A stretch of DNA of 64,000 nucleotides from Granulicella sp. WH15 (GTDB lineage: Bacteria; Acidobacteriota; Terriglobia; Terriglobales; Acidobacteriaceae), in assembly GCF_009914315.1 (NCBI RefSeq), contig NZ_CP042596.1, positions 1,798,001 to 1,862,000 on the forward strand, read 5' to 3'. The notes under the pieces were generated by a model that was not told the DNA's origin, did not search any database, and worked only from the letters and a program-made list of their open reading frames with translations. Both the position numbers and the translations under genes were made by a program. Below are positions 10,764-53,178 of the stretch, piece by piece. Numbering within the stretch: the stretch's first letter is position 1; every line of letters starts with the position of its first letter.

Positions 10764-10768
10764 AATAG

Positions 10769-11335: not shown

Positions 11336-11342
11336 TTCCTTC

Positions 11343-12062
11343 ATGACAGACGCAGTGCACCTGCAGCAGGTTCGTTTCTCTTATACCCGGCAGCAGCCGA
11401 TTCTTCGGATCGACGAGTTATGTATTTCCTCTGGCCATCGATGCTTCCTTCACGGGCCGTCAGGTAGTGGCAAAACGACTCTTCTCTCGCTCATCTCGGG
11501 GGTCCTCAAACCGCAGCAGGGAAGCATTCGCATTCTTGGGCAGGAACTCACGCAACTTTCGGCCGCAGCTCGCGATACACTACGCGGCTCCCAGATCGGC
11601 TATATCTTTCAGGGCTTCAATCTCATTCCTTACCTTTCAGTCGAGGAAAATATTGCATTACCCTGCAAGCTGCATCCCGAGCGCCGTGCTCGTATTACTG
11701 CTGAGACGTTGTCGGCTGAAGTAACGCGCCTGGCCTCGCGTCTGGATATACACACACACTTAAGTGCGCCAGTCGCTCATCTCTCCGTTGGTCAACAACA
11801 GCGCGTTGCAATCGCACGTGCCATCATTGGTTCTCCGGCACTTGTGATTGCAGATGAACCTACCTCCGCGCTTGATACGGATCGCCGCGAAGACTTTTTG
11901 TCGCTCCTTACTGAAGTGACCGGTGAAGCGAAGGCGCGTGGTAATCCCGAGATGACGCTTCTATTTGTGTCGCACGATCGATCTCTCGCTACGCGCTTTG
12001 ACTCGATCCTGTCGCTTCCCGAAATTAATCAGGAGACGAGATCGTTGGAGAATACCCTGTGA
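11343..12062 (+). CDS. ABC transporter ATP-binding protein (LolD/MacB-like)
   Basis: Cytoplasmic ATPase of a type VII-like ABC system. Walker A is GPSGSGKTTL, the Q-loop lies in IFQGFNLIPYLSVEENI, the signature is LSVGQQQRVAIARA, Walker B is LVIADEPTSALD, and the H-loop is LLFVSHD. About 239 residues, normal for LolD-like subunits. ATG 11343 leaves a 7-bp gap after the DUF3299 stop; ATG 11325 in the same frame would overlap that gene by 11 bp and is also possible. It is coupled to the permease by a GTGA overlap at 12059-12062. The DUF3299-ATPase-permease order suggests one operon. Confidence 0.92.
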   Translation: MTDAVHLQQVRFSYTRQQPILRIDELCISSGHRCFLHGPSGSGKTTLLSLISGVLKPQQGSIRILGQELTQLSAAARDTLRGSQIGYIFQGFNLIPYLSVEENIALPCKLHPERRARITAETLSAEVTRLASRLDIHTHLSAPVAHLSVGQQQRVAIARAIIGSPALVIADEPTSALDTDRREDFLSLLTEVTGEAKARGNPEMTLLFVSHDRSLATRFDSILSLPEINQETRSLENTL

Positions 12063-16299: not shown

Positions 16300-16328
16300 C
16301 GTATGGGGCTCCTGAGAACTCAAGCGAA

Positions 16329-17498: not shown

Positions 17499-17519
17499 CG
17501 CTCCACTCTCGGGCTATGT

Positions 17520-19070: not shown

Positions 19071-19258
19071 AGATTCCAATCAGCCCAACTGAAATCGACA
19101 GCCATCTAAGCACAGTGGCTACAGCGGCGCGTGTCGCAACACGTGCCGCTGGCGTCTTCCAGTTAGATCGTAAGTTTAGTTTGACGACAACTCCCATGCT
19201 CTTTGCGTGCACAGTTCCTGCAATCGGACAAATGTCCTGCTTCGAACAGAAAATGTGA

Positions 19259-20413: not shown

Positions 20414-20580
20414 GCGCGCCTCGGGGAAGTTATGCGAGTTCATTCTACTGTTCTACCTGAACTGGAGTGGTGAGGGAGGCGTCTTCCGGAGGCTCACAGA
20501 GCTAGTGAGCCAGTTTAATGATCGCTCATGGTGAGCGATGGCTCTTTCCCAATGCTGTGCCGACTGATCCATTGCCGTAA

Positions 20581-21444
20581 TTATTTGATTCCTGATAGAA
20601 ATGCCTGCTGGACGCGATTGAAGCTGCGTCCACGCAGAATGGCGGCGACGATGGTGCGAGTCGCGCGCACGTCGCTGAGGCGCACATAGCGGCAACCGGC
20701 GTTCCGGTCTATGGCCATTTCGGGCGCGAGTGAGATGCCGACACCGGCGGCGACCATTGCGAAGAGGCTGCTGAACTGGCCGCTCTCGAACGCGATATGA
20801 GGCGTGATGCGTGCGTGCGTGCAGGCGTCTATGCTGAGGTCGCGAAAACAGTGGCCATCTCGTAGCATGACGAAGGATTCTCCGCGGAGATCCTTGATGG
20901 CGAGTGATTTGGCAGAGGCGTGGGGATGACCTTTGGGCAGAACGGCAAAGAGCGGCTCAGTGAGAATGGGAAACAGCTCCAGGTCTCTGTGGCGCAGGGG
21001 GAGGGCCAGAATCGCAAGATCGATCGACAGGTCTCGCAGGCTTTCGACTAGAATCGGCGTCGTTTCTTCAACAATGCGCAGCTTCGCTTCCGGATGCTTC
21101 CTTGTAAAGGACGCCGTGTAGCGCGGCATCAGGTAGGGAGCAATGGTCGGGATAACGCCCACGGCCACGCTGCCGTGAATGTCCGTACTCTTATCGGCCA
21201 CGCTGGACCGCGCCGCCTCCATCTGGCTCAGAACGGAGCGGGCGTGGGGCAGAAAGGCGCGACCAGCCTCGGTGAGGCGGATACTGCGGCCCAGGCGGTC
21301 GAAGAGCTTTGCCCCCAGATCTTCTTCGAGCTTCAGAACCTGCTGAGAGAGCGAGGGTTGGGCGACCTGGCAGCGTTCGGCGGCGCGGCTGAAACTGCCC
21401 GTCTCCGCGATAGCACAAACGTAACGTAACTGGTGAAACTCCAT
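20581..21444 (-). CDS. oxyR: OxyR-type hydrogen peroxide sensor, LysR family
   Basis: LysR regulator of 287 residues. The N-terminal winged helix (FHQLRYVCAIAETGSFSRAA) is followed by an effector domain carrying C199 and C208 in GHCFRDLSIDACTH. This is the same spacing, and by my count the same numbering, as the redox pair that forms the peroxide-sensing disulphide in E. coli OxyR, with the GHC-RD context kept. It is divergent from katG, and an OxyR-like operator overlaps its own start codon, so autorepression and peroxide-dependent katG activation are expected. The pairing of sensor, operator and catalase makes the assignment strong. Confidence 0.93.
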   Translation of the reverse strand: MEFHQLRYVCAIAETGSFSRAAERCQVAQPSLSQQVLKLEEDLGAKLFDRLGRSIRLTEAGRAFLPHARSVLSQMEAARSSVADKSTDIHGSVAVGVIPTIAPYLMPRYTASFTRKHPEAKLRIVEETTPILVESLRDLSIDLAILALPLRHRDLELFPILTEPLFAVLPKGHPHASAKSLAIKDLRGESFVMLRDGHCFRDLSIDACTHARITPHIAFESGQFSSLFAMVAAGVGISLAPEMAIDRNAGCRYVRLSDVRATRTIVAAILRGRSFNRVQQAFLSGIK

Positions 21445-21501
21445 AGGTGATACCTATACTCCGTATGGGAATTATGTATTGGAGCTATCGACCTCCATAA
21501 T
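21443..21501 (+). promoter_or_regulatory. OxyR operator and katG promoter
   Basis: Four tetrads at 21443-21446, 21454-21457, 21465-21468 and 21476-21479 read ATAG, CTAT, ATGG and GTAT with exactly 7 bases between each, close to the OxyR consensus ATAG-N7-CTAT-N7-ATAG-N7-CTAT. A CATAAT -10 element at 21496-21501 has no good -35; the operator overlaps that position, as expected for an activator-dependent promoter. The first tetrad overlaps the oxyR start codon. Confidence 0.75.
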
Positions 21502-21557
21502 GCTACATTCATCTGGTCGAGACAAACTATATCCGGGCTCCAAGCGGACCCTGATAG

Positions 21558-23771
<2,214 letters not shown>

Positions 23772-23948: not shown

Positions 23949-25088
23949 CTAGCTAAGGTGCGTTTCGACGGCTGGCGTTGCAGTCAAGATGCGATAGACC
24001 ATGTCCGCCGTTCTACCCGATGCGGCCTCGGCGATCTCAATAAGCTCCTGGTGATGAGGGCTCAGATGACAGGCTGGATCGGTCGCATCGGGATCGCCCA
24101 GAATCTGCATGGCCTGGCAGCGGCAGCCGCCAAAGTCGATGTTCTTGCGATCGCACGAGCGGCAGGGCTCCTGCATCCAGTCCTCCCCGCGGAAGCGGTT
24201 GAAGGCTGCGGAATCACGCCATATCCAATCAAGGCTGCGATCTTGAACGGAATCGAACACCATGCCCGGAATAATCCCGGCTGAGTGGCATGGCAACACA
24301 CGGCCCGCCGGATCAATCAGCAGCAACTGCTGCGCCCAGCCGCCGACACAGGCCTTGGGATACTTCGCAAAGTAGTCCGGTACCACTGCCTGCAGATGGA
24401 TGCGGCCGCTCAGGCGTCCCTGAGCCTCTTGCAACACGCGAATACTGCGTTCCAACTGCGCCCGGGTGGGCATCAGGGTGTCTCGGTTCTTCAACGCCCA
24501 GCCATAGTACTGAACATGAGCTATCTCAATACGCTCCGGCCCCATGCTCTCAGCCAGGGCGATCATCTCCTCCAGCCGGTCAAGGTTCTGCCGATGCACG
24601 ACGATGTTTACCGTGAAGGCGAGGTTCGGCTGAGCCTTGATGAGCTTTGCCATCTCGAGCTTCTTCGCGTGCACGCGAGCACCCGCCCACTGGTTCGCCT
24701 GCTGCTCGTCGGCATCCTGCAGGCTAAGCTGCATGTGGTCGAGACCAGCATCGACCAGCGATTGCAGGCGTTGCTCAGTAAGCCCAAGCCCCGACGTAAT
24801 CATGTTGAGATACAGGCCCGCCTCACGTCCCGCGGCGATCAACTCCGGCAGGTCCTGCCTTGCCAACGGCTCACCACCGGTGAGATGCAGATGTACGATC
24901 CCCATCGCGGCTGCCTCGCGGAAGACGCGCGACCACGTCTCGGTCGAAAGCTCAGCATCCGCGGACTGCATCACCAGGGGGTTCGAGCAGTAGATGCAGT
25001 GCAATGGGCAGCGATGCGTCAACTCGCAGACCAGCGACAACGGCTGCGGAAGCGCGAGAGACTGCGGATTGTTACGGGCTTCGATCAT
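23949..25088 (-). CDS. pqqE: PqqE, radical SAM peptide cyclase
   Basis: Forms the carbon-carbon bond between the Glu and Tyr side chains of PqqA, the first committed step of pyrroloquinoline quinone synthesis. The radical SAM motif Cx3Cx2C is RCPLHCIYC near the N-terminus. The C-terminal SPASM region has the auxiliary cluster cysteines (KACVGGWAQQLLLIDPAGRV, EPCRSCDRKN, GGCRCQA). The length of 379 residues fits the family. Its start overlaps the pqqD stop by 4 bp, which matters because PqqD delivers PqqA to PqqE. Last gene of the operon. Confidence 0.97.
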   Translation of the reverse strand: MIEARNNPQSLALPQPLSLVCELTHRCPLHCIYCSNPLVMQSADAELSTETWSRVFREAAAMGIVHLHLTGGEPLARQDLPELIAAGREAGLYLNMITSGLGLTEQRLQSLVDAGLDHMQLSLQDADEQQANQWAGARVHAKKLEMAKLIKAQPNLAFTVNIVVHRQNLDRLEEMIALAESMGPERIEIAHVQYYGWALKNRDTLMPTRAQLERSIRVLQEAQGRLSGRIHLQAVVPDYFAKYPKACVGGWAQQLLLIDPAGRVLPCHSAGIIPGMVFDSVQDRSLDWIWRDSAAFNRFRGEDWMQEPCRSCDRKNIDFGGCRCQAMQILGDPDATDPACHLSPHHQELIEIAEAASGRTADMVYRILTATPAVETHLS

Positions 25089-25369
25089 GCTTCTTTGAAG
25101 AGTAGAACACTGCGTTGATGTAGGCTGCGCAGGAACCCATCCACCTCTTGAGCGATCTGTGCGTGCGCCTCAGGGGGATACTGCGCCTGAAGGGCATCGG
25201 TGATCTGTGAGACGGTACGCTGTCCATCCACAAATGCGAGGATCTCTGCCGCTGCTCCCTTCAACCGTAGTAGCCCTTCGGGAATCAGAAGGACTGTTTC
25301 ATCCTCGTTGCGCGACTGCACCCGACACCCACGCGCAAGCTGTGGCACTCTGTTTGACGTATCGATCAT
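25085..25369 (-). CDS. pqqD: PqqD, peptide chaperone
   Basis: A 94-residue RiPP recognition element that binds PqqA and presents it to PqqE. Family features include RVPQLARGCRVQSRNEDETV, LLIPEGLLRLKGAAAEIL and the DGQRTVSQITDAL helix. It overlaps pqqC and pqqE by 4 bp on either side, giving tight translational coupling. Confidence 0.95.
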   Translation of the reverse strand: MIDTSNRVPQLARGCRVQSRNEDETVLLIPEGLLRLKGAAAEILAFVDGQRTVSQITDALQAQYPPEAHAQIAQEVDGFLRSLHQRSVLLFKEA

Positions 25370-26115
25370 GCGCTCGGCTCCGGACGGAAGACGCCAGGCG
25401 AAGGCGGAATATTCCCCGGTTCAACATACGAGTAATAGATGGCGTCGAGTTGGGCCCACAGTAACGCGCACTTTCGGCGCAGACACTCGACCACAAGCTC
25501 CTGTAGATCCGGCGTGGTCGCGTGCTCGAAGGCGTAATCGAAGGCGAACTTCGCATCTTCCGGAGCTTGCGTCAGACGCCCTTCAAAGTACGCGAGCCCC
25601 GGCACGACCCACGGATAGTGTTTGCGCAAAGCATCCATGCGCAACGCGATGAGGTTGCCTGCAAAAAGCTCCGTCAGCGACGATGCCACTGCCTCCAGCA
25701 GCGTTCTATGCGTGACGAGATCGACGTATGAATCAACCGCATAGCGGACGCCCGGCAGGATGCCCTTGTAGGACTGTACGTATGCGGCATCGAGACCGGT
25801 TGCCTCCGCAAGTTGAATCCATTTCTCGATCCCTCCCGGCTTCTCGGGATGTGCGGGGTCGCCGTCGTGGTCCACAATGCGCTTGCGCCACGCCAGGCGG
25901 AACTTCGCATCGTGCGACTTCGACAGAATGATGGAATCCTTGATCGGGATAATACTCTGGTAGTAAAAGCGGTTCAGCGCCCACGCCTGCATCTGCCCAC
26001 GCGTCAGTTCGCCCGCGTGCATTCGCAGGTGGAACGGATGGGTGTGGTGATACATGGCTTCGCCGGTGCGTTGCAGGTAGTCACGAAGCCCTTGCTTATC
26101 GAGCATCTCTGCCAT
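25366..26115 (-). CDS. pqqC: PqqC, pyrroloquinoline-quinone synthase
   Basis: Cofactor-less oxygenase that carries out the last ring closure and eight-electron oxidation to PQQ. The sequence has the all-helical PqqC fold with YHHTHPFHLRMHAGELTRGQ, WALNRFYYQSIIPIKDSIIL and ESMG-like active-site elements such as RIVDHDGD and YVQSYKGILPGVRYAVDSYV. The length of 249 residues is typical. It is separate from PqqD here, whereas methylotrophs often fuse them. Starts 17 bp after the pqqB stop. Confidence 0.96.
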   Translation of the reverse strand: MAEMLDKQGLRDYLQRTGEAMYHHTHPFHLRMHAGELTRGQMQAWALNRFYYQSIIPIKDSIILSKSHDAKFRLAWRKRIVDHDGDPAHPEKPGGIEKWIQLAEATGLDAAYVQSYKGILPGVRYAVDSYVDLVTHRTLLEAVASSLTELFAGNLIALRMDALRKHYPWVVPGLAYFEGRLTQAPEDAKFAFDYAFEHATTPDLQELVVECLRRKCALLWAQLDAIYYSYVEPGNIPPSPGVFRPEPSA

Positions 26116-26131
26116 CAGAAGTCCATCTCCA

Positions 26132-27040
26132 TCAGAGGTTGATCTCCATCCCGTCGTAACCGATCTCTATGCCGGCATTCAGCACGGCTTTTTGCTCCTC
26201 AGATCCGTTGGCTAGGATGGGATTGCTGTTGTTGATATGGGTGTAGATGCGTCGCACATGAGTCAGACCCCGCAGAGCTGTCAACGACCCATACGGTCCC
26301 CCAATTGGCATGTGCCCCATCTCGGTAGCGGACGGCGTACCGGGTTGCAGACGCTGCAGCTCGTCCTCGCTCCATAGCGTTCCATCCACCATCACGACAT
26401 TGCAGTTGCTGAGCAGGTCCAGCAGCTCAGGCGTCATGGACGGTAGTGCCGGAAGATAGGCGGCTCGCCTGCCTTCGCTCGATTCGAAGAGCACGCCCAG
26501 TGTCATCTCGTTCAGCTTCAATCGGTCTCTCATCGCTGTCGGAATGTGCATAGGGAAGCTGCCAGGAAGCTCGATAGGAATGATCTTCAATCCCGGCAAC
26601 GGGAGCAGAGGAACATCGTGCCGAATGGTCTGTGTGCGCTTCTGGCCTGGCACACGCTCCAGCATGGAAAAGAACGGATTCGATTCCAGCACAGAGAGCA
26701 CGCTATCGGTCGCATAGATCGAGACCGGCGTGAACTCGCGCATCAGGAGAAGGCCCAGAATGTGGTCCAGATCAGCCGAGGTCAGCAGTACGCCGGCCAC
26801 AGGCGTATGGCGCAGACCGTATTGCGGCTTAGGATGAAGAAAAGACGTCCGGGAAAGCTGGTCACGCAGGTCTGGAGAGGCGTTTACCAGCAGCCAGTCA
26901 TTTCCATCCGCAGAGACGGCAAGCTGCGACTGGGATCGTGCAAGAGTGGGATGAGAGCGGGAGGCCTGACAGTTGGAACAAGCACAGTTCCACTGGGGAA
27001 GACCGCCACCTGCGGCGGCCCCCAGCAGATGTAGACGCAC
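26132..27040 (-). CDS. pqqB: PqqB, metallo-beta-lactamase-fold hydroxylase
   Basis: Proposed to hydroxylate the cross-linked Glu-Tyr intermediate of PQQ synthesis. It starts LHLLGAAAGGGLPQWNCACS; the CACSNC zinc motif and the SADLDHILGLLLMREF metal-site region are characteristic of PqqB. 302 residues from GTG 27040. It begins 7 bp after pqqA, so pqqA and pqqB share one leader. Confidence 0.96.
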   Translation of the reverse strand: MRLHLLGAAAGGGLPQWNCACSNCQASRSHPTLARSQSQLAVSADGNDWLLVNASPDLRDQLSRTSFLHPKPQYGLRHTPVAGVLLTSADLDHILGLLLMREFTPVSIYATDSVLSVLESNPFFSMLERVPGQKRTQTIRHDVPLLPLPGLKIIPIELPGSFPMHIPTAMRDRLKLNEMTLGVLFESSEGRRAAYLPALPSMTPELLDLLSNCNVVMVDGTLWSEDELQRLQPGTPSATEMGHMPIGGPYGSLTALRGLTHVRRIYTHINNSNPILANGSEEQKAVLNAGIEIGYDGMEINL

Positions 27041-27046
27041 TGCGGC

Positions 27047-27127
27047 CTAAATCTCGGCAGGCGAGTAGGAGTTGATCTCGCAGCAGAGCGAGACTTCTTC
27101 ATAGCTGGGCGTATTCCACTGCTTCAT
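27047..27127 (-). CDS. pqqA: PqqA, 26-residue PQQ precursor peptide
   Basis: A very short gene encoding the ribosomal peptide that becomes PQQ. The translation starts MKQWNTPSYEEVSLCCEI and ends with SYSPAEI. The two residues that form PQQ are E17 and Y21, in the invariant E-x3-Y spacing. AGAGGTG lies 8 bases before ATG 27127. It sits exactly at the head of pqqBCDE and is preceded by a good promoter. Confidence 0.97.
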   Translation of the reverse strand: MKQWNTPSYEEVSLCCEINSYSPAEI

Positions 27128-36831: not shown

Positions 36832-39078
36832 TTAGCGCAATGAGATGACTGCCGCATCCCGTGCCGGTACGTTGACCGTGACCTGTTGCCCCGAGACCTT
36901 GATGTCGAGCTTGCCCCACTTGTCTTCGCCCGTGGAGAATCTCCCGAGGTCTGAACTGAGTGAGACGGATACCGAACGATCGGTTCGAGTTGGATTCGTC
37001 ACCCACAGGTTGGTTCCGCCTTCTCCCTGATGTACGCGCACCTGGACCTCGTTGTCATTGACCTTCACCCGTGGAACAATGCTGGCCATCTTCAGAAACC
37101 CGGCAAACAAGGTTAGCGTTGGCTTGTCGTGGTGCAGGTAGTAACCGCTGCCAGGGAACGAGCCCATCAACAGGGTGCGACCACGGCCCATCTGGTTCTC
37201 GACTGCCGCCACCGAGCCATTCGGATAATGGCCCGCTGCCTTGCCCCCCTTGACCTCGTATTGCTGGAAGAAGTAACGGCCATGAATGTTATTGCCATTG
37301 ACCTCCATCATGAGGTTGTCGTGGATGTCAGCCAGGAACTCGACGTAGCTCTCTCTCGCGCCGAAGACCTCATCCAGACCATAGTTAGGCTGTACTTCTC
37401 CCACATGGCCATGTTCGCCGAAGTAGGCGGGAAGTCCCTCGCTGATAAGCGTGCCACCCTTGCTTACATAGTCCTTCAGCTTGGCCACGGTCTCAGGCTT
37501 CATCATCACCGGGTAGGCCAGATAGATGAGTTTGTACTCGTCGATGTTATCGAGCGCGACGAAGTCCGGTTGAATGTTCTGGTCGAAAAAGGCCTGATAT
37601 GCGCCGCGCATGGACTCAAGGTAAAAGTCCGTCGAGAGCTGTTGCACGTAGTTGAATAGTTCTGCCTCTGGGATAAAGAGCAGGCCGACATCGCCGCGTA
37701 CGGGACGTGACTTCCATATCTCGGGATGAGCATTGGCCCAGGTCAGTGTTTTGCCTGCCATCTGCGCGCGCGGCGTCACCGAGCCATCCATGCCGATGGA
37801 GCCAAATGCTCCAAAGAGCGGCCCGTCCAGCAGCGGGCGATAGCGACAGTAGAGCAGACCGCGTGCTCCTCCTGCAAAGGAGATCATGTTCCAGATGCGG
37901 ATGTCCTCCGGTTCGGTGACGCGGCCGTCCTCGCGCGGTTTGCCGATGAGTTGAGGTTGCATCCAGAGCGGGCCACCCTGTGCTTCCGCGTGCCAGAACG
38001 GTTTGCCGCGCGCTCCGGCACGGACCAGATCGAATGATTGCCACTGCCGCCAGGGTTCCGTGCCGTGCCGCGACTGAACCCAGGTGAGGCCGTACACATC
38101 GACACGCTTGGCGGCCATCCACTCGTTATGCGAGGCGGAGGCGTGACTCTCCAATGTGCCTGCGACACCGTGGCAGGTCACCAGATGTTTGGGGTCGAGG
38201 CGACGATACAGCGCGATGCGCCAGTCGAAGTGTTCGTATGCCTTATCAATGCGATGCTGCAGCCAGTCGAGACTCTCCGGATAGCCGCTGAAGTCATGCG
38301 GTGGCTCGATATCGGCCCACTCCGAGAAGCTGGGGCGATGCCAGGTCTTGCAGACTGCATCGAGCGAACCGTACTTATCCTTGAGCCACTCCTGTAACTT
38401 CTTCTGGCTTGCTTCGCAGAAGCAGTTCATCTTGCCGATGCGACCACTGTCGTAGGTCGTCTCATTCCACAGGTCATAACCCAGCAGGGCTGGATGGCCA
38501 CGGTAGTGCTCGATCAGTTTAGTGTGAAAGTTTTCCGCCAGCGCTTTGACATCAGCATTGTCGAGACACAGACCGGGAAATCCTCCGATGCCGCTGCTCG
38601 CCGAGACAGAGCTGTGTGTGATTGAGTCGTCGCTCGCTTTATAGCGTGCATGCGGATACTTGCGGAAGGCCCACTCGGGCGCTGCGGTATCGAGCGTTGC
38701 GATGATGACCTTGATGCCGTTCTTCGCTGCGAGATCCATCATCGTGTCATAGTCGGCCCAATCCCACTTGCCGGGTGCGACCTCAAGCGCGGACCACATG
38801 AACCAGTGGCGAAAGGTATTCATCCCGAGCTGCGATGCAGTCTGATGATCGCGTGCCCACTCATCCGTCGGAGGGTTGGATTTGCGGAAGTAGACGCCGC
38901 CGGAAGGGAAGACCGAACCCATGTTGACTTCGGTGCTGGGCATGACGACTGTAGAGGCTGTGTCCTGTCCCACCAACGCGCCAAGAAGCGGCTGCGTATG
39001 ACCCACGGCAGAAGACGCCGTAATCATCGCGGTAGACAAGAGGAAGTCTCTTCGAGTTACTTCATTGTTATCGCTCAT
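36832..39078 (-). CDS. Exported beta-galactosidase, GH42
   Basis: About 748 residues, with a Tat signal (VTRRDFLLSTAMITASSAVG). The GH42 barrel is clear: MNTFRHWFMWSALEVAPGKW, the acid/base Glu in LLGYDLWNETTYDS, and the nucleophile Glu in KPFWHAEAQGG. The trimerisation domain follows (GLLFIPEAELFNYVQQ, LIYLAYPVMMKPETVAKL). GGAGAG 8 bases upstream favours ATG 39078 over 39108. It would cleave beta-galactosides outside the cytoplasm, after uptake by the receptor encoded just upstream (31-bp gap). Activity on other pyranosides is possible. Confidence 0.9.
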   Translation of the reverse strand: MSDNNEVTRRDFLLSTAMITASSAVGHTQPLLGALVGQDTASTVVMPSTEVNMGSVFPSGGVYFRKSNPPTDEWARDHQTASQLGMNTFRHWFMWSALEVAPGKWDWADYDTMMDLAAKNGIKVIIATLDTAAPEWAFRKYPHARYKASDDSITHSSVSASSGIGGFPGLCLDNADVKALAENFHTKLIEHYRGHPALLGYDLWNETTYDSGRIGKMNCFCEASQKKLQEWLKDKYGSLDAVCKTWHRPSFSEWADIEPPHDFSGYPESLDWLQHRIDKAYEHFDWRIALYRRLDPKHLVTCHGVAGTLESHASASHNEWMAAKRVDVYGLTWVQSRHGTEPWRQWQSFDLVRAGARGKPFWHAEAQGGPLWMQPQLIGKPREDGRVTEPEDIRIWNMISFAGGARGLLYCRYRPLLDGPLFGAFGSIGMDGSVTPRAQMAGKTLTWANAHPEIWKSRPVRGDVGLLFIPEAELFNYVQQLSTDFYLESMRGAYQAFFDQNIQPDFVALDNIDEYKLIYLAYPVMMKPETVAKLKDYVSKGGTLISEGLPAYFGEHGHVGEVQPNYGLDEVFGARESYVEFLADIHDNLMMEVNGNNIHGRYFFQQYEVKGGKAAGHYPNGSVAAVENQMGRGRTLLMGSFPGSGYYLHHDKPTLTLFAGFLKMASIVPRVKVNDNEVQVRVHQGEGGTNLWVTNPTRTDRSVSVSLSSDLGRFSTGEDKWGKLDIKVSGQQVTVNVPARDAAVISLR

Positions 39079-39109
39079 CGTTATCTCTCTCCGGTCATGT
39101 GAAGGCATT

Positions 39110-42908: not shown

Positions 42909-43655
42909 ATGCCCCGATCGCTTAAACCCGTGAGTGCTTTACCGCGTACAACGCTCACGGAGGCCGCCTTCGAGCAACTGATCGCGTACGTGGTTAAAGG
43001 GACATGGAAGGCCGGAGACCGTCTTCCGCCGGAGCGTGAGCTGTGCCAACAGTTCGGCATCGCCCGCACGTCATTGCGAGAGGCACTGAAGGCGATGGAG
43101 CTCGTGGGGATGCTCGATAGCCGCGTGGGCGACGGAACATTTGTTTGCCCGAGATCGGAGTTTCTGTCGCGACCGTTACTCTGGGCTTTCACTGGTACCG
43201 ATCACGAAGAGCTTGCGGAGATCATGGAAGCCCGCGCGCTGGTGGAAGAGAACTTGGCCGGGTTGGCGGCGGAACGAGCGTCTGAAGAGGAGATCGCTCG
43301 GATCAAAGAGGCGATTACTCAGATGAGCAATGCTATCTCAGCCGGAACATCTATTTTGGAAGCTGATATGAACTTCCACTTGGCAGTCGCTGCCGCTGCC
43401 CACAACGACGTGTTGCGCAACGCCGTGCAGTTGTTACGCAACATTACGCGCCAATGGCTGAAATACAAGGTGCAGATGCCGAATGTCGCGGCATCTGTCT
43501 TAAGTCGACATGAAGCAATCTATCGAGCGATCGCCTCACGCAGGCCGAGCGCGGCGCGGCGCGCAATGCGGAAACATCTGGAAGAGACACAACAACTGGT
43601 CATTCAAGTGGTTAAAAAACACGGTGGCTCTCGTGAGCCGTCTCCTTATGTTTGA
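42909..43655 (+). CDS. GntR-family regulator, FadR/FCD type
   Basis: 248 residues. Winged helix GTWKAGDRLPPERELCQQFG then IARTSLREALKAMELVGMLD, followed by a FCD all-helical effector domain with metal/ligand histidines (MNFHLAVAAAAHNDVL, SRHEAIYRAI). FCD members usually sense organic acids such as galactonate, glucarate or pyruvate. GGAGGAGG precedes ATG 42909. Divergent from the TonB receptor/GH42 operon with a 412-bp gap containing a promoter and inverted repeat, so it is probably that operon's repressor. Confidence 0.93.
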   Translation: MPRSLKPVSALPRTTLTEAAFEQLIAYVVKGTWKAGDRLPPERELCQQFGIARTSLREALKAMELVGMLDSRVGDGTFVCPRSEFLSRPLLWAFTGTDHEELAEIMEARALVEENLAGLAAERASEEEIARIKEAITQMSNAISAGTSILEADMNFHLAVAAAAHNDVLRNAVQLLRNITRQWLKYKVQMPNVAASVLSRHEAIYRAIASRRPSAARRAMRKHLEETQQLVIQVVKKHGGSREPSPYV

Positions 43656-44507: not shown

Positions 44508-44805
44508 GGAACGCCGAATCACGACGTGCGAGACTCCATAGCAATTATTAGATCGGGCAATCGAAGGTGTGAGCAGTATACGCAACGGGCAAGTTTTACC
44601 TCCGGATCGAGCCTGCTTTACTTATTTGCCAAGCTAGGCCGATACGCAACTATTTTTGGTCTGACTATTAGTCCAACATTCGACTTATTCTCTCTTCGAC
44701 AAGAATCCATTGGTGGTGCTATATTTTCCGCCTCAAAATTGAGCGGCCATAGAACGAAGCCTGATTGATGTGTCGGCCGAAGATTTTCAAATCGAGGACA
44801 AGATC
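44508..44805. other. Intergenic stretch before aldehyde dehydrogenase
   Basis: About 300 bp, partly AT-rich, between the Crp/Fnr pseudogene and the aldehyde dehydrogenase. The left end may contain scrambled remains of the regulator's C-terminus. No intact gene seen. Confidence 0.45.
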
Positions 44806-46326
44806 ATGGCCACCTTTGCACCGTCGTCAGAAGTTGAGCTGGACTCCCGCCTCGGCTTCCAAGCCGCGGAGTTTGTACGCACACACCATAGAATGCTGAT
44901 CGATGGTAACTTCGTCCCCGCATCGTCAGGCAAAACATTCCCCGTTTACAACCCGGCTACAGGCGAGGTGATCTGCCATGTGCCGGAGGCCGATCATAAC
45001 GATGTCGACAAAGCGGTCGTGGCCGCACGTCGCGCCTTCGACTCAGGCCCCTGGTCCCGTGTCAGTCCCTCTCAGCGCGGTCAACTGTTATGGAAGCTGG
45101 CCGACCTGCTTGAATCCCATACTGAAGAGTTTGCGGAACTGGAGTCTCTCGATAACGGCAAACCGGTCTCGGTAGCGCGCATTGCGGACGTTCCGTTGGC
45201 TGTCGATCTCTTTCGCTATATGGCCGGTTGGACCACGAAGAATCTTGGTTCTACAATTCCTCTCTCTGCCGGCCAAGATTTTCTCTCTTACACCGTCCGC
45301 GAACCCATCGGTGTCGTGGCCCAGATCATTCCCTGGAACTTTCCTCTGCTGATGGCTGCCTGGAAGCTGGGGCCTGCACTCGCAACTGGATGTACAGTCG
45401 TACTCAAGCTTGCGGAGCAGACGCCGTTGACAGGGCTTCGGCTCGCTCAGTTGATAGTTGAAGCTGGATTCCCTCCGGGCGTTGTCAATGTTCTTACGGG
45501 GTTTGGCGAGCCATGCGGAGCCCCGCTTGCCGCGCATAATCTTGTCGACAAGGTAGCCTTCACCGGATCAACTGAGGTCGGCAAGCTTATAGCGAAGGCG
45601 GCAACCGGCAACCTAAAGAAGGTCACTCTCGAACTCGGTGGCAAGTCTCCCGCAATCATCTTCCCTGATGCTGATATGGACACAGCCATCGCCGGGGCGG
45701 CCTCTGCGATCTTTTTCAATCAGGGCCAATGTTGCTGTGCCGGCTCTCGTCTCTTCGCGCACGAGGCTGTCTTTGATCAGGTTATCAGCGGAGTTAGCGA
45801 GATCGCCGGCAAGATCAAGATCGGCCATGGCCTTGATCCTGCCACGGAGCTTGGTCCTCTTGTCTCCGAGGAACAGTTCGAAAAGGTGTCCGCTTATCTG
45901 TCCAGCGGGAGAGAGGAAGGGGCGAAGATCGGCTCGGGTGGAGGACGTTATTCCGATCGCGGCTACTTCATACAGCCCACTGTCTTCCACGATGTGAGGC
46001 CGGATATGAAAGTAGTCGCCGAAGAGATCTTTGGCCCTGTTGTCGTCGCTCAGAAATTTTCATCGGATGCCGACCTCGAGAAACTTGCTGCCCAGGCGAA
46101 CGATACGGTTTTTGGTTTAGCCGCGAGTGTATGGACTCGGGATATCTCGATCGCTCATAAGATGGCTCGTCGTATTAAAGCAGGCACCGTCTGGGTCAAC
46201 TGTCACAACGTCTTTGACGCAGCTCTTCCATTCGGCGGATACAAACAGTCCGGCTGGGGCCGCGAGATGGGAGCTGAAGTTCTCAACAACTACACCGAAG
46301 TCAAGGCCGTCACCGTGAAGCTTTAA
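44806..46326 (+). CDS. NAD(P)-dependent aldehyde dehydrogenase
   Basis: About 506 residues, the usual ALDH length. Motifs: VAQIIPWNFPLLMAAWKLGP, GSTEVGKLIAKAA, the general-base Glu in VTLELGGKSPAIIF, and the catalytic Cys in FFNQGQCCCAGSR, followed by EEIFGPVV and PFGGYKQSGWGREMG. Closest in pattern to betaine/phenylacetaldehyde/retinal-type class 1/2 ALDHs. ATG 44806 follows GAGGACAAG; GTG 44770 is an in-frame alternative. Single gene; it could serve the alcohol or sugar oxidation systems nearby, but no direct link is visible. Confidence 0.93.
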   Translation: MATFAPSSEVELDSRLGFQAAEFVRTHHRMLIDGNFVPASSGKTFPVYNPATGEVICHVPEADHNDVDKAVVAARRAFDSGPWSRVSPSQRGQLLWKLADLLESHTEEFAELESLDNGKPVSVARIADVPLAVDLFRYMAGWTTKNLGSTIPLSAGQDFLSYTVREPIGVVAQIIPWNFPLLMAAWKLGPALATGCTVVLKLAEQTPLTGLRLAQLIVEAGFPPGVVNVLTGFGEPCGAPLAAHNLVDKVAFTGSTEVGKLIAKAATGNLKKVTLELGGKSPAIIFPDADMDTAIAGAASAIFFNQGQCCCAGSRLFAHEAVFDQVISGVSEIAGKIKIGHGLDPATELGPLVSEEQFEKVSAYLSSGREEGAKIGSGGGRYSDRGYFIQPTVFHDVRPDMKVVAEEIFGPVVVAQKFSSDADLEKLAAQANDTVFGLAASVWTRDISIAHKMARRIKAGTVWVNCHNVFDAALPFGGYKQSGWGREMGAEVLNNYTEVKAVTVKL

Positions 46327-46579: not shown

Positions 46580-46828
46580 TGGGGTAGGCACATCCGAAGA
46601 CGTCCGAGCTTGCGGTCAAGCAAATTACTTTGTCGCATGGTTGATAGTATCTCCATGCAATTTCGTGGAGAGCTTTTCAACGCGTTCAATCATCCGAACT
46701 TTCACGCGGATGACACTGGCTCCCGAGCAAAGAGCCCAATTCAAACGGTCACTGCTGCAGGCTTCGGCCAGATACAGGCAGCTAATGATCCACGCATTAT
46801 TCAACTCGATCTGAAGCTCCTCTTTTGA
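46580..46828 (+). pseudogene. C-terminal remnant of a TonB-dependent receptor
   Basis: The last 80 residues of an otherwise meaningless frame match the end of Oar-like receptors: SISMQFRGELFNAFNHPNFH, then AAGFGQIQAANDPRIIQLDL and KLLF with terminal aromatic. No plug or upstream barrel is found. It lies directly before the quinoprotein cassette, so a receptor once preceded those genes and has been deleted. Confidence 0.75.
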
Positions 46829-47042: not shown

Positions 47043-47876
47043 ATGCAAATACGGAGTACCATCCTGATGCTGTCTTTAGTGGCAGCGGTGGTCTATGCCT
47101 CGGCAGCCCAAGAGCCTATTATCAAGAGCCCTATCGGTGCGGGGCCAAAGGTCGTTGCCGAGGGACATACGATCTACAACCAGACCTGTACCGCATGTCA
47201 TGGAATGGATGGACAAGAAGGTGAGTTGGCCCCGGCTCTTGTGGGAGATCGTCGTTTCTTTCGCGTTACCGAAGGCTCGCTCTACGACACGATCAAGCAC
47301 GGAATCCCCGGCACTCCCATGCCCGCGTTCACGATTCCTGACGACAATATCTGGAAAGTAGTTGCCTTTATTCGCGCCATACGCAGTTCGGCATCGGAGG
47401 CTGATGTTCCCGGCAATGTGGAGCACGGCAAAGAGATCTTCGTCGGCAAGGGAGGATGCTTGCAATGCCACACTCTGGGGGAGAAAGGTGGAAGGATCGG
47501 GCCAGATCTATCCAATGTGGGGGCTACGATTACGTTGAAACGCCTAAAAGAGACTCTCACCATGGATGGGCCGATTCCCGCCGGTTATCAGCCCATGAAG
47601 GTGGTTACGCGGAAAGGTGAGGTGATTGATGGGATCGCTAAGAACGAAGATGACTTTTCGATTCAACTGCTGGACCGTCAGAATCATCTCCATCTGCTCG
47701 ATCGCAGCGAATTGAAGTCGGTTGAAAAATCGAAGGCTTCCCTTATGCCACATAACTATGACAAGGTCTTAACCGTTGACGAATACAACGATATGCTAGC
47801 CATGCTCGCTCGACAGGTGATCATGGTGCAACACAAGACACGCGAAGTTGAGGGAGATGGAGCGGTCGGACGATGA
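47043..47876 (+). CDS. Exported diheme cytochrome c
   Basis: About 277 residues. ATG 47043 follows GAGGGAG and begins a signal peptide (STILMLSLVAAVVYASA). Two haem c motifs: CTACH in TCTACHGMDGQEG (first domain, with a later Met in GTPMPAF) and CLQCH in GGCLQCHTLG. The second domain continues RIGPDLSNVGATITLKRLKE and EVIDGIAKNEDDFSIQLLDR, the pattern of the Planctomycete/Verrucomicrobium-type haem-binding domain. Its stop overlaps the quinoprotein start (ATGA), so it is almost certainly the electron acceptor for that dehydrogenase in the periplasm. Confidence 0.92.
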   Translation: MQIRSTILMLSLVAAVVYASAAQEPIIKSPIGAGPKVVAEGHTIYNQTCTACHGMDGQEGELAPALVGDRRFFRVTEGSLYDTIKHGIPGTPMPAFTIPDDNIWKVVAFIRAIRSSASEADVPGNVEHGKEIFVGKGGCLQCHTLGEKGGRIGPDLSNVGATITLKRLKETLTMDGPIPAGYQPMKVVTRKGEVIDGIAKNEDDFSIQLLDRQNHLHLLDRSELKSVEKSKASLMPHNYDKVLTVDEYNDMLAMLARQVIMVQHKTREVEGDGAVGR

Positions 47877-49477
47877 AAAAAATAGTTCTGATCCTCATGT
47901 TTAGTTTGGTTGTATCACTCTCCGCGCAAGTGACGGATGAGCAACTTCGACAGCCTCCTGGCAAGGACTGGCTGACTTATAACGGAAGCTATGACAGTCA
48001 GCGCAACAGTACGCTGGACCAGATCAAGCTAGCGAATGTAAGTTCTCTTGTTTCTCAGTGGGCTTTTCATGTCAGTGGCGGTGCATCCATGCAGAGCGTG
48101 CCGATCGCAGTCCATGGTGTGCTGTACTTTACGCAGCCCAATGCGCTCTACGCGATTGATGGTCGTAGCGGGCGCCTGATCTGGGATCATCATCATCAGC
48201 TAACGACGGTTAAAGATCGCGAAGGTCCGCAAAGAGGAGCGGCAGTCTATAAGGATCGGGTCTACTATCTGACCACCGATGATTATCTGATAGCCCTGGA
48301 TGCCTCGACCGGAAGCGTTGTGTATCAGATCAAGATTGCGGAGACGAAAGAGGGTTACTCTGCCCCTCCCGCCCCATTCATCGCCAACGGGAAGATCATC
48401 GTGGGAGTGGCCCCAGGAGACCGCGGGCTGAATGGGTGGATTGAAGCCTATGATGCAGAGACAGGAAAGCGTTTATGGCATTGGGCCGCGATTCCAGGGC
48501 CTGGTGAACCTGGCAATGAAACATGGGCCGGAGATTCCTGGAAGCATGCGGGCGCAGCCGCATGGATGAGTGGGAGTTATGATCCGGAACTCAACCTCTA
48601 CTATCTCGGCATGGGCAATCCCTCACCGGATTTCAATGGAGACGTTCGCAAGGGGGACAATCTTTACAGCGAATGTATGGTTGCGCTCGATCTGGATAAC
48701 GGCAAGCTGAAGTGGTACTTCCAGTTCACACCCCACGACATGATGGACTGGGACGGGGCGGAGATGCCAGTACTCGTCGATGCCAAGTATGAAGGCAAGA
48801 TGCGCAAGCTTATGGTTCATGCCGACCGGAATGGTTTCTATTATGTGCTGGATCGTGAGACGGGAAAGTTTCTTCACGGTGTACCATTCGTCCAGAAGAT
48901 GAACTGGGCCTCGGGCCTTGCAGCATCGGGGCGTCCTATTCGCATCCCTGGGGTTGAGCCGAGTCTAAAGGGGACGAAGGTCTGTCCATCGTCTATCGGC
49001 GCGACCAACTGGATGTCGCCCGCTTATAGTCCCCAAACCAACCTTTTCTATGTCGTCGCTCTCGAAGGGTGCGGGCTTGCCACCAAGAACACGGAGACCT
49101 TTCGCCCGGGTGGATTTCAGTATCGCGCAGGTGGTGATGTGCTCCTGCATGACGCCGATTGGAAGGTTTACGTTCGCGCACTCGATCTTCTGACTGGCCG
49201 CCAGGTATGGGAGCAGGAACGCATCGGAAACTCGGCGCTGGGGGGTGGTGTGTTGTCGACCAACGGCGGTATTCTCTTCTCCGGCGAACTGGATGGCGAG
49301 TTTGTCGCGCTTAATGCCAGAACCGGAAAGCCTGTCTGGCACTACAACACGGGTGAAGGCATCAACGCGCAACCGATGACGTATATGGTCGATGGCAAAC
49401 AGTATGTCGCCATTGCAACCAACACGACAGTCTTCAGCTTTGCTCTCTTTGAACCCCAAAAGGTGACAGCCAAATGA
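47873..49477 (+). CDS. PQQ-type dehydrogenase (quinoprotein), exported
   Basis: 534 residues, with a signal peptide (KKIVLILMFSLVVSLSAQ). It has the eight-bladed propeller of PQQ alcohol/aldose dehydrogenases: DWLTYNGSYDSQRNSTLDQI, AYDAETGKRLWHWAAIPGPG, MGNPSPDFNG, the catalytic Asp region PHDMMDWDGAEMP, and tryptophan-docking repeats LTGRQVWEQERIGNSALGGG and LNARTGKPVWHYNTGEGINA. The Ca-ligand region usually GAEFGVRG reads PGDRGLNG, so the Glu is probably Asp. No adjacent Cys-Cys disulphide is seen. It should oxidise an alcohol or the anomeric carbon of an aldose and pass electrons to the cytochrome encoded with a 4-bp overlap. The window also holds pqqABCDE. Confidence 0.9.
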   Translation: MKKIVLILMFSLVVSLSAQVTDEQLRQPPGKDWLTYNGSYDSQRNSTLDQIKLANVSSLVSQWAFHVSGGASMQSVPIAVHGVLYFTQPNALYAIDGRSGRLIWDHHHQLTTVKDREGPQRGAAVYKDRVYYLTTDDYLIALDASTGSVVYQIKIAETKEGYSAPPAPFIANGKIIVGVAPGDRGLNGWIEAYDAETGKRLWHWAAIPGPGEPGNETWAGDSWKHAGAAAWMSGSYDPELNLYYLGMGNPSPDFNGDVRKGDNLYSECMVALDLDNGKLKWYFQFTPHDMMDWDGAEMPVLVDAKYEGKMRKLMVHADRNGFYYVLDRETGKFLHGVPFVQKMNWASGLAASGRPIRIPGVEPSLKGTKVCPSSIGATNWMSPAYSPQTNLFYVVALEGCGLATKNTETFRPGGFQYRAGGDVLLHDADWKVYVRALDLLTGRQVWEQERIGNSALGGGVLSTNGGILFSGELDGEFVALNARTGKPVWHYNTGEGINAQPMTYMVDGKQYVAIATNTTVFSFALFEPQKVTAK

Positions 49478-51366
49478 AAAGCCTTTCAGCCCGCATCGTC
49501 CTGATTTCTTCTCTTTGCCTCCTCTCTCAGTGGGGCTTCAGCCAGGCTCGCTACACCATCACGGATGAACCTGCAACCGGTCCTAACTCACCACGCGTCG
49601 TCGTACTGCACGATCATGTTGCAGGCCAGGAGGCCGCGATAGCTCCTTCAGAAGGTGGAGAGCTTTCCAGTTACAAGGTGACTTACAAAGGGCAGTCCAT
49701 CGAGATGCTCTATCACGCTCGCAACTACGATGATAAGACCGGCTTCCAAGGCAAGGGGCCACTTCTTTGGCCGGCTGTCGGAGCACAGTACCCAACGGAC
49801 ACGGTTCCCAAGGAGAGCTGCGGCACAGGCACTTATAAAGTAACTGGCAAGAGCTATCCTATGCCATGCCACGGCTTTGCTCGCCTGGTCCCGTGGAAGG
49901 AGGTTAGTCGGGCTGCCGATAACCATAGCGCGCGTGTCACTGTAGAACTGACCGACTCCGACGCGACTCGGAAGTATTACCCATTTTCTTTTCACCTCGA
50001 TGCGAACTTCGAACTGATGAATGGTCATCTGACGATCGACTATGTCGTCAAGTCCGACGCGGCCAACACCGAGCCCATGCCGTTCTCCATTGGTAACCAC
50101 ATCGGTTTCAAATTGCCGTTTCTTCCTGGCACTGACCCAGCGAAGATGCTCTTCGAGACTCAGAGCACGGGGCAACTGCTCCGCAATACGGTCGGTGTAC
50201 TCAACGGCCAACAGAAGCCTCGTTCGTTCTATCAACCGGAGGAGTTGGGAAGTTTCGACGCGCACGTCGCAATGCCTCTCACGGGATATAAGAGCCAGCC
50301 GTTCTCGCGTCTCATTGATCCGCAAGGTATGGTCCTTCGCCTGACGCAAACGGCGAGCTCTACCTTGCCCGAACCGCTCATCCGTACCAATGCCTTCGGT
50401 GGCCCGGCGGTCGGCTACTTCTGCCCCGAACCCTGGTTCGGCGTGCAGAACTCGTTGAACACAGGCGTCGGTCTCATAAAGCTGAAGGCAAACGAGTCGT
50501 GGACTTGGCGGCTGGATCTACAGATTGAGCCCCCACCCGTGCCGGCACCATCGGCGAACTCTGGACTCGAACGTGTCGGAACCGGTTTCTCATTCGTCGA
50601 GGGGCCCGTATGGGTAAAGGACGGAGGAGGCTACCTGCTCTTCAGCGATATCTATAACTCCCGCACCATCAAGATCGCGACTCCGAACCAGCCTGAGGTA
50701 TACCGCCGCTACACAAGGGCCGGAAACGGCAATTCTATGGACGTTCAGGGGCGACTCTATACCGCGGAGCGCGACGGCCATCGGGTATCGCGTCAGGAGA
50801 AAGATGGCAGCGAGACAATCGTCGCATCGGCCTATGAAGGAAAACGCCTCAATTCGCCTAACGATGTCGTTGTCCGCCGCGATGGACAGGTATATTTCTC
50901 CGACCCAGCTTCGGCGGCTCTCCTAGAGCCTCGAGAGCTCTCCTTCAATGGCCTCTACCACGTCGACCCTCGTGGCAAAGTAACGCTGATAGCCAAGATG
51001 CCGCGCCCCAACGGTGTCGCTCTGACGGAAGATGGCCGCACACTCTATGTAGCCGACTCGACCGAGAAGACAATCCATGCCTACGATCTCGACAAGGACG
51101 GCAATGCTTCGCATGAGCGCACTCTCATCTCGGGAATTGAAGGGACTCCCGATGGTCTGCGTGTTGCCGCCAACGGCAATCTCTACGTCGCTTGCAAAGG
51201 CATCGCAATCTATACCCCGGCCGGCAAGTTGATCAAGATGATTGAGTTTCCCGAAACTCCCGTGAACTGTGCCTTCGGTGGACCTGATCTTCAAACCCTC
51301 TACGTTACAGCACAGACATCTGTCTATCGTCTGCACGTTCCAGACAAAGGTTCGTTCCAGTACTAA
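49474..51366 (+). CDS. Exported fusion: galactose mutarotase-like domain plus SMP-30/gluconolactonase
   Basis: 630 residues, with a signal peptide (IVLISSLCLLSQWGFSQ). Residues of about 40-350 form an aldose-1-epimerase-like beta-supersandwich (GELSSYKVTYKGQSIEMLYH, SIGNHIGFKLPFLPG). From about residue 365 a six-bladed SMP-30 propeller begins, with metal ligands Glu in SFVEGPVW, Asn in LNSPNDVVVRRDG, and Asn/Asp in PRPNGVALTEDGRTLYVADS. The fusion joins anomer interconversion with lactone hydrolysis, the steps before and after a beta-anomer-specific dehydrogenase. It overlaps the quinoprotein stop by ATGA, so all three genes are coupled. The fusion was read from sequence; the shared pathway is inference. 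Confidence 0.87.
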   Translation: MKSLSARIVLISSLCLLSQWGFSQARYTITDEPATGPNSPRVVVLHDHVAGQEAAIAPSEGGELSSYKVTYKGQSIEMLYHARNYDDKTGFQGKGPLLWPAVGAQYPTDTVPKESCGTGTYKVTGKSYPMPCHGFARLVPWKEVSRAADNHSARVTVELTDSDATRKYYPFSFHLDANFELMNGHLTIDYVVKSDAANTEPMPFSIGNHIGFKLPFLPGTDPAKMLFETQSTGQLLRNTVGVLNGQQKPRSFYQPEELGSFDAHVAMPLTGYKSQPFSRLIDPQGMVLRLTQTASSTLPEPLIRTNAFGGPAVGYFCPEPWFGVQNSLNTGVGLIKLKANESWTWRLDLQIEPPPVPAPSANSGLERVGTGFSFVEGPVWVKDGGGYLLFSDIYNSRTIKIATPNQPEVYRRYTRAGNGNSMDVQGRLYTAERDGHRVSRQEKDGSETIVASAYEGKRLNSPNDVVVRRDGQVYFSDPASAALLEPRELSFNGLYHVDPRGKVTLIAKMPRPNGVALTEDGRTLYVADSTEKTIHAYDLDKDGNASHERTLISGIEGTPDGLRVAANGNLYVACKGIAIYTPAGKLIKMIEFPETPVNCAFGGPDLQTLYVTAQTSVYRLHVPDKGSFQY

Positions 51367-51775: not shown

Positions 51776-51855
51776 AAAACCATGCAATATCACTTTGAAG
51801 GGCTGGGAGATTGCCCCATCTCTCCCACTTCCTTACCACCTGATTGGAGAGCATC

Positions 51856-53178
51856 TTGAATCGCTATCTTGTAAAGGCTACTGCGGTCGGAGCGTTAGGC
51901 GGCCTGCTCTTCGGCTTCGATACGGCAGTCATCGCCGGTACAACGCAACAGCTCACAGAGGTATTTCACCTCACGCCTTTTACGCTTGGCCTCACGGTCT
52001 TCATCGGGCTGGTCGGCACTGTGATCGGGGCGATGGGCTCCGGTGTTCTGGGGCAGAAGATTGGTGGCCGCGAAGCGCTGCGCATCATGGCGATCCTCTA
52101 TACGATCTCCGCCCTTGGCTGCGCCTTCGCCTGGAGCTGGAATGTGCTGATGATCGCTCGCCTGATCGGCGGCCTCGGCATCGGCGGCTCATCGGTGCTA
52201 GGCCCCGTCTATATCGCCGAGTTGGCTCCTGCCAGGCTTCGCGGTCGCATGGTGGGCCTCTTCCAGATCAACGTCGTCATCGGCATCCTGCTCGCCTATC
52301 TCTCCAACTACATCATCACCACCTGCAACCTCGGCCTTCTGCAATGGCGTTGGGAGTTCGGCGTAGCCATCGTGCCATCGCTTCTTTTTCTTACCCTGCT
52401 CTACGGCATCCCGCGCAGCTCGCGCTGGCTCGTCACCACCAACCAGACCGGCGAAGCCCGCGAGGTACTGGAGCTAATGGGGTCTCCCGACTCCGCCGCC
52501 GAGCTGCAAGAGATCGTGGACTCGATCCATCTGGAACACGGCCTCAAAGAGGAGCCGCTCTTCAATGGCCGCTACAACAAGCCCATCTTTCTTGCCGTCT
52601 CGGTCGGTCTTTTCAACCAGCTCTCAGGCATCAACGCGATTCTGTACTACTCAAACTACATCTTCGCTTCGGCAGGCTTCAGCGCAAACTCTGCGGCTCT
52701 CCAGACCGTGGGCGTAGGTCTTGTCAACCTGCTCGCCACCTTCCTTGGCATGACTCTCATCGACAAGCTGGGCCGCAGAACGCTCCTGCTGATTGGCGCC
52801 ACCGGAATGACTCTGGCTCTGGCGGGCGTCGCCGCGATCTTTCATACCCAGACACATCAAAACCTGCTGGTCTGGTTACTTGTTCTGTTCATCGTCTTCT
52901 TCGCGATCTCCCAGGGATCGGTGATCTGGGTGTACATCGCGGAGGTCTTTCCCTCGCGAGTCCGCTCGAAGGGGCAGAGTATCGGTTCTTCATCGCACTG
53001 GATTATGAACGCACTAATCGCTGGCACATTCCCCTTGATTGCTGCGAAATCGCAGGCATTGCCATTTGCCTTCTTCGCAGCCATGATGCTGCTGCAGTTC
53101 TTCATCGTGCTATTCGTCTATCCGGAAACCAAGGGCAGCTCTCTCGAGGCGATTCAAGCACAGCTTGGCATTCAGTAA
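51856..53178 (+). CDS. Sugar:H+ symporter, MFS sugar-porter family
   Basis: About 440 residues and 12 hydrophobic segments. Sugar-porter signatures: GGLLFGFDTAVIAG in helix 1, ELAPARLRGRMVGLFQIN, FNQLSGINAILYYSNYIF in helix 7, EVFPSRVRSKGQSIGSS and the PETKGSSLE C-terminal motif. TTG 51856 has GGAGA 6 bases upstream; TTG 51844 is the alternative. It imports a monosaccharide or aldonate-type sugar through the inner membrane. It follows the quinoprotein/mutarotase-lactonase genes but is separated by the GH32 remnant, so it may have belonged to a fructan or sucrose use unit. Confidence 0.92.
   Translation: MNRYLVKATAVGALGGLLFGFDTAVIAGTTQQLTEVFHLTPFTLGLTVFIGLVGTVIGAMGSGVLGQKIGGREALRIMAILYTISALGCAFAWSWNVLMIARLIGGLGIGGSSVLGPVYIAELAPARLRGRMVGLFQINVVIGILLAYLSNYIITTCNLGLLQWRWEFGVAIVPSLLFLTLLYGIPRSSRWLVTTNQTGEAREVLELMGSPDSAAELQEIVDSIHLEHGLKEEPLFNGRYNKPIFLAVSVGLFNQLSGINAILYYSNYIFASAGFSANSAALQTVGVGLVNLLATFLGMTLIDKLGRRTLLLIGATGMTLALAGVAAIFHTQTHQNLLVWLLVLFIVFFAISQGSVIWVYIAEVFPSRVRSKGQSIGSSSHWIMNALIAGTFPLIAAKSQALPFAFFAAMMLLQFFIVLFVYPETKGSSLEAIQAQLGIQ

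Follow-up and report, generated by a model that had tools for sequence, protein, structure and literature searches.

Propeller-type quinoproteins that act on sugars are known from a few systems. Gcd of Escherichia coli (b0124; TIGR03074) lacks a vicinal cysteine pair and converts aldoses to lactones in the periplasm; mutarotation and lactone opening there fall to separate genes or occur spontaneously. The Pseudogluconobacter alcohol dehydrogenase dependent on pyrroloquinoline quinone (PQQ; Protein Data Bank (PDB) entry 4cvb) binds PQQ and Ca, has no vicinal disulfide, accepts a broad range of alcohols and saccharides, and transfers electrons directly to cytochrome c; we know of no epimerase-lactonase partner for it. 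We focus here on a 64,000-nucleotide stretch of the acidobacterium Granulicella sp. WH15 (NZ_CP042596.1, positions 1,798,001 to 1,862,000; hereafter the window), whose genome is a single contig of 4,673,153 bases. Three overlapping genes in it encode a diheme cytochrome c, a quinoprotein-fold dehydrogenase, and a fusion of an aldose 1-epimerase with an SMP-30/gluconolactonase. With moderate confidence, we read this trio as a periplasmic, translationally coupled module for the C1 oxidation of an aldose or of a saccharide ending in an aldose.

The trio dehydrogenase shares with the methanol/ethanol-type enzymes of TIGR03075, such as PedH (6zcv) and QH-ADH (1kb0), the eight-bladed propeller, the catalytic Asp, the Asn/Asp metal ligands, the floor Trp, and a partner cytochrome c. 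It differs in lacking the cysteine pair, in having Asp in place of Glu199 (PedH numbering throughout), in the loss of Trp493, and in its coupling to an epimerase-lactonase. Another relative is the acido-empty-quinoprotein group A (TIGR04528, "acido_non_PQQ"), likewise acidobacterial and without a cysteine pair in the members compared (the paralogue L051 of the same genome and others); the trio enzyme, however, reaches 536.2 bits where the cut-off is 650, and has Asp at the Glu199 site where L051 has Phe. Gcd and the trio dehydrogenase have in common the catalytic Asp and the Asp two residues on. In contrast to Gcd, the trio enzyme has no membrane domain, carries Arg at the position of Lys493 in Gcd, stays under the TIGR03074 (membrane quinoprotein glucose dehydrogenase) cut-off (203.3 versus 832.65 bits), and would pass its electrons to a cytochrome rather than to quinone. 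The match to 4cvb holds in fold and in sequence (187.7 bits) but in sequence is far weaker than that to PedH (E 1.8e-106, 359.9 bits).

Both joints of the trio are ATGA overlaps, and the gene make-up and the overall extent (47043-51366; genes in Table 1) agree exactly with those given in a preliminary description of this DNA. Each of the three proteins opens with a hydrophobic, signal-peptide-like stretch (judged by eye, without a predictor), which suggests a periplasmic location. Two CxxCH motifs, at residues 49 and 139, identify the first protein as a diheme cytochrome c, and its domains are PF13442 and PF00034 (TIGR02603, 83.5 bits; cut-off 68.15). The view that no operon of this make-up had been described agrees with the open-licence literature searched (titles and abstract starts), where neither such an operon nor a paper on an enzyme of this dehydrogenase subfamily was found. 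To our knowledge, the arrangement is undescribed, as are the dehydrogenase-lactonase fusions and cytochromes with a CBM9 domain discussed below, while the individual parts are of known kinds.

The product of the third gene matches PF01263 (58.1 bits; gathering cut-off 27) and PF08450 (158.9 bits; gathering cut-off 26.3), and both domains are present in all 120 fusion matches listed from the protein database (120 of 3,202, with 8,000 candidates scored). Across these 120 and the window protein, His133, His209, and Glu319 of the epimerase part and Glu376, Asn463, Asn513, and Asp560 of the lactonase part are invariant (121/121). From family knowledge, we take the former to be the catalytic residues of the epimerase and the latter the metal site of the lactonase; alignments to PDB entries 3k25, 3e5z, and 3dr2 agree in position with these active-site residues. 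The listed database matches, all with both domains, show the fusion to be frequent in environmental sequences, whereas it is rare among sequenced species, with a full-length match in 2 of 62 genomes of the genus.

The preliminary description had proposed searching for the three-gene order across genomes, and the order does recur. An alignment of 18 dehydrogenases, scanned against the species contigs of GTDB, matched 542 relatives, the best 80 of which were kept as loci. Eight loci other than the window carry the trio order with a full fusion and four-base RTGA overlaps at both joints (two of them, L060 and L061, are near copies of each other), and a further one, L055, has the same overlaps at its joints but a shortened third gene. 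Among these best 80 of 542, the nine loci with a dehydrogenase of at least 62% identity all have an epimerase in the next gene, and eight of the nine also a lactonase. The 11 trio dehydrogenases (the window, a second copy in the same genome, and the nine loci) form one clade with an SH-aLRT support of 100 in a tree of 102 dehydrogenases built by a quick method and rooted at the midpoint. The order and its overlaps are therefore real, conserved, and more than chance, and because the overlaps are conserved, translation of the three genes is probably coupled. Single-protein searches of a sample of 297 genomes of the phylum, with four candidates scored per genome, found full-length trio proteins in at least the window genome and one of the same genus (G061). 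The nearest named relative carrying the trio is Acidobacteriaceae bacterium dw_441, referred to below as the sister genome. Clustering of recurrent neighbors revealed no further partner that could be named.

The second copy in the window genome (L044, 3718690-3722203) comprises cytochrome, dehydrogenase (66% identical), epimerase, and lactonase. In its fusion gene (10289-12207 of the locus; about 3720288-3722206 of the contig, G000:C1), the reading frame changes within the linker that joins the two enzyme domains, and the lactonase part downstream of it does not begin with a signal-like stretch. The change may reflect a split, decay, or a sequencing error.

Ties between this kind of dehydrogenase and lactone opening extend beyond the trio. 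Two of the 120 listed dehydrogenase matches (P0185 and P0199) are single dehydrogenase-lactonase chains, 62-64% identical in the dehydrogenase and 64% in the lactonase part. A distant paralogue in the window genome (L050, about 43%) stands in a separate order of cytochrome, lactonase, and dehydrogenase. That module was found in five of the six genus genomes tested (G061, G321, G303, G323, and G312), the sixth, G314, showing the lactonase only within the piece examined. The lactonase of this module is only about 35% like that of the window, and the two loci whose dehydrogenases are nearest to the paralogue in the species scan (L128 and L129) contain cytochrome and dehydrogenase without a lactonase of this type in the DNA examined.

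A cytochrome accompanies the dehydrogenase in 79 of the 80 related loci, 74 times upstream or fused and five times downstream only; L065 has both fused in one chain, and L108 alone has no cytochrome within 3 kb of the dehydrogenase. Because of this adjacency, the cytochrome is proposed as the electron acceptor of the dehydrogenase. In the sister clade, 21 of 36 loci (blastp) have a diheme cytochrome with an N-terminal CBM9 domain, each coupled to a dehydrogenase of the trio family, and Pfam confirmed the domain in the two loci tested (L064 and L070). These domains point to carbohydrate as the likely substrate class. The dehydrogenase fold of the fungal PQQ pyranose dehydrogenase CcPDH is different from that of the trio enzyme. 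In the available part of its description, a heme domain works with the PQQ sugar dehydrogenase, an arrangement comparable in idea to the sister clade's pairs, although CcPDH is a heme b protein, eukaryotic, and one chain (PMC4332668).

With the fusion sites intact, the trio order conserved, dehydrogenase-lactonase fusions present, and a separate cytochrome-lactonase-dehydrogenase module, C1 aldose oxidation is a well-supported inference. The epimerase domain, judged from its family and residues, would keep the anomers exchanging so that the anomer accepted by the dehydrogenase is not exhausted. The dehydrogenase would then convert the ring hemiacetal to an aldonolactone, as its lactonase links suggest, releasing two electrons; a metal ion and, in all likelihood, a quinone cofactor would assist in this step. 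The adjoining diheme cytochrome would take these electrons directly, and the lactonase domain, again by family and residues, would open the lactone to the acid and so pull the reaction forward. The proposal of a one-unit aldose-oxidation line in the preliminary description stands as regards the intact fusion residues, the order kept in one dehydrogenase clade, and three ties to lactonases; PQQ binding is putative, and the aldose substrate is one that we infer.

Several observations weigh against this reading. An epimerase was found nowhere in the DNA examined around the dehydrogenase in the remaining 71 of the 80 related loci (in two of these, L097 and L121, the opposite strand carries a lactonase of weak similarity), so that this kind of dehydrogenase does not in general require one; the chains P0185 and P0199 likewise lack it. 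By sequence and fold, the nearest solved relatives are alcohol dehydrogenases. The PQQ pocket itself is altered. In a comparison of 120 listed dehydrogenase homologues (window row included), the vicinal cysteine pair is absent from the window enzyme and from all 120, the metal ligand Glu199 is Asp in all 120, and the pocket residue Trp493 is gone (Gly in 118, Ala in 1, a gap in 1). Finally, of 45 genomes that carry a close dehydrogenase (at least 55% identity; genome sizes 2.4-10.2 Mb, completeness unstated), a single one has PqqC, and PqqE occurs in the same one, leaving 44 without either. The earlier label of a PQQ-type dehydrogenase accordingly holds for the quinoprotein fold and for TIGR03075, barely passed at 481.6 bits (cut-off 480.05; the second copy scores 480.3), but only in part for the PQQ-pocket residues, and the best-scoring NCBIfam model is TIGR04528. 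The fold is secure: the match to PF01011 has an E value of 2.9e-87, and a Foldseek search with an AlphaFold model (mean pLDDT 73.3, pTM 0.78; too weak for pocket geometry) returned PedH first, with a TM score of 0.77. In the same 120 homologues, Arg137, Trp263, Asn281, Asp323, Asp325, Arg350, Asn417, and Trp418 are kept throughout, and Ser181 is Pro in 111.

Missing pqq genes turned out to be a poor guide to the cofactor. In controls with 30 TIGR03075 loci each, taken as best matches from a longer list rather than as a random draw, the canonical cysteine pair occurs in 15 of 30 loci of 16 pqqC-negative genomes (spread over 10 genomes) and in 6 of 30 matches of 15 pqqC-positive genomes (spread over 4). 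Gcd-like matches (E 1e-100), none over the family cut-off, occur in 67 of the 297 phylum genomes, with PqqC over cut-off in 4 of these 67. Acidobacteria without pqq genes thus seem to carry PQQ-type enzymes anyway. Absence of pqq genes was therefore rejected as proof of a non-PQQ enzyme, and since canonical enzymes with the cysteine pair also occur in acidobacteria lacking pqqC, the trio dehydrogenase may use scavenged PQQ. Of the 297 phylum genomes, 22 pass the TIGR04528 cut-off, 15 that of PqqC, and 6 both. At E 1e-90, TIGR03075 matches number 34 in G077 (4.8 Mb) and 33 in G206 (4.3 Mb), two genomes of this sample with no PqqC match, suggestive of a large quinoprotein expansion without its own PQQ synthesis. 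The vicinal cysteine pair is absent from some proven PQQ enzymes, too. According to the available part of PMC12124388, PQQ import is widespread and E. coli itself uses imported PQQ; within the Acidobacteria, that part places the importer PqqU in the class Vicinamibacteria only and suggests own synthesis or PQQ diffusing in soil for the others. From these controls and that source, we consider it rather likely that the trio dehydrogenase, given that it is a working dehydrogenase, uses PQQ in a remodelled pocket.

The window genome offers further quinoproteins for comparison. All four of its TIGR03075-like dehydrogenases lack the cysteine pair. Six Gcd-like proteins (L194-L199) keep Asp466 and Lys493 of Gcd but lack His262, and could be the PQQ users of this genome; four of the six have an internal CxxCH and may be quinohemoproteins. 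The L051 locus (7302-12997; about 2200301-2205996 of G000:C1) has a cytochrome upstream of its dehydrogenase, which is over the TIGR04528 cut-off at 745.7 bits, and downstream genes whose beginnings resemble, by eye, those of a sugar isomerase and of a Gfo/Idh oxidoreductase.

A bolder extension of C1 oxidation, which we regard as speculative and doubtful, posits a large acidobacterial radiation of quinoprotein-fold sugar dehydrogenases in which the metal site and the catalytic Asp persist while the PQQ pocket has been remodelled, and which oxidize sugars at C1 without normally seated PQQ. Another quinone-like cofactor, or scavenged PQQ held differently and perhaps with a lanthanide, would serve instead, and in one clade the recruitment of a mutarotase-lactonase fusion would have extended the pathway to the free acid. 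As a lanthanide mark, the second Asp (PedH Asp325) lost weight: an equally spaced Asp is found in Gcd of E. coli, and 56 of 60 acidobacterial sequences of the control have it as well. In the available part of PMC11996626, the known lanthanide enzymes are alcohol dehydrogenases only, and a lanthanide sugar enzyme would thus be new.

Somewhat less probable still is that the dehydrogenase is an "empty" quinoprotein, a propeller with metal site and catalytic Asp that holds no PQQ and either uses another redox cofactor or acts as a binding or sensing subunit. The pocket losses and the rarity of PqqC and PqqE described above would fit, as would the best NCBIfam model, although its cut-off is passed not by the trio enzyme but by the L051 paralogue. 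Yet every one of the 120 homologues retains Asn281, Arg350, the floor Trp, and both Asp residues, the catalytic one and the second, none of which an idle site would need; 4cvb is a PQQ-dependent sugar and alcohol dehydrogenase without a cysteine pair; the missing pqq genes, as the controls indicate, are not peculiar to this family; and E. coli itself works with imported PQQ. An alcohol dehydrogenase system, in which the enzyme acts on alcohols or hydroxy-aldehydes and the fusion handles another cyclic product or is joined for co-regulation only, is improbable: the nearest solved structures, the narrowly passed TIGR03075 cut-off, and an aldehyde dehydrogenase gene upstream of the trio (44770-46326) speak for it, but the dehydrogenase-lactonase fusions and the separate lactonase-dehydrogenase operon tie the enzyme to lactones, the trio order and overlaps are conserved, the sister clade's cytochromes bear CBM9, and blastp found no such aldehyde dehydrogenase in the stretch examined around the sister-genome trio.

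Table 1. Positions in the window of the trio and of neighboring features
Feature	Positions	Strand	Remarks
Diheme cytochrome c, 277 aa	47043..47876	+	ATG at 47043, stop at 47876; signal-like N-terminus
Quinoprotein-fold dehydrogenase, 534 aa	47873..49477	+	subfamily without vicinal cysteine pair
Aldose-1-epimerase/SMP-30-lactonase fusion, whole gene	49474..51366	+	third gene of the trio
Aldose 1-epimerase domain of the fusion	49474..50535	+	boundary approximate; His133, His209, Glu319
SMP-30/gluconolactonase domain of the fusion	50536..51366	+	boundary approximate; Glu376, Asn463, Asn513, Asp560
ATGA overlap, cytochrome stop/dehydrogenase start	47873..47876	+	read from the sequence
ATGA overlap, dehydrogenase stop/fusion start	49474..49477	+	read from the sequence
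Sugar-porter gene, major facilitator superfamily	51844..53178	+	477-base gap after the trio; context, not conserved with it
Receptor-gene remnant	46637..46825	+	last 64 codons, 65.6% identical to a sister-genome gene for an outer-membrane receptor (identity by eye); not a working part
pqqABCDE cluster	23949..27127	-	about 20 kb from the trio; context, not conserved with it

Two neighbors that the preliminary description had attached to the trio are present but do not belong to the unit. The sugar porter that follows it does not adjoin the trio of the sister genome. There, two proteins with weak matches to PQQ propellers come after the trio, and the cytochrome is directly preceded by a receptor-like gene (TonB-type by eye), of which the window retains only the last 64 codons. 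The pqq cluster was excluded because the 44 of 45 genomes noted above lack it; in the window, it looks complete, with pqqE, pqqC, and pqqB over their NCBIfam cut-offs, pqqD at 25085-25369, and a 26-residue pqqA candidate at 27047-27127 (by position and eye). Sugar-degrading functions also lie in the surroundings, namely an alpha-L-fucosidase (13338-14978) and a GH42 beta-galactosidase (36832-39108), along with a GntR/FCD regulator (42909-43655). At 15244-23771, an oxidase of the FAD/BBE type (17520-19079; PF01565, PF08031) stands between two seven-bladed lactonases (PF10282; 16329-17498 and 19259-20443), followed by LysR-like and KatG-like genes (by eye); this is possibly a second, peroxide-making sugar-oxidation cluster.

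The presence of all aldose-oxidation steps in one coupled unit is a strong substrate clue for a family of soil quinoproteins that the nearest model at NCBI labels "empty". Because the enzyme, its electron acceptor, and the two activities that handle its product are encoded in a single operon, the cofactor question becomes directly testable. Should the enzyme prove to use PQQ, many of these acidobacteria would probably be PQQ scavengers; if it does not, a common soil phylum would harbor unknown cofactor chemistry.

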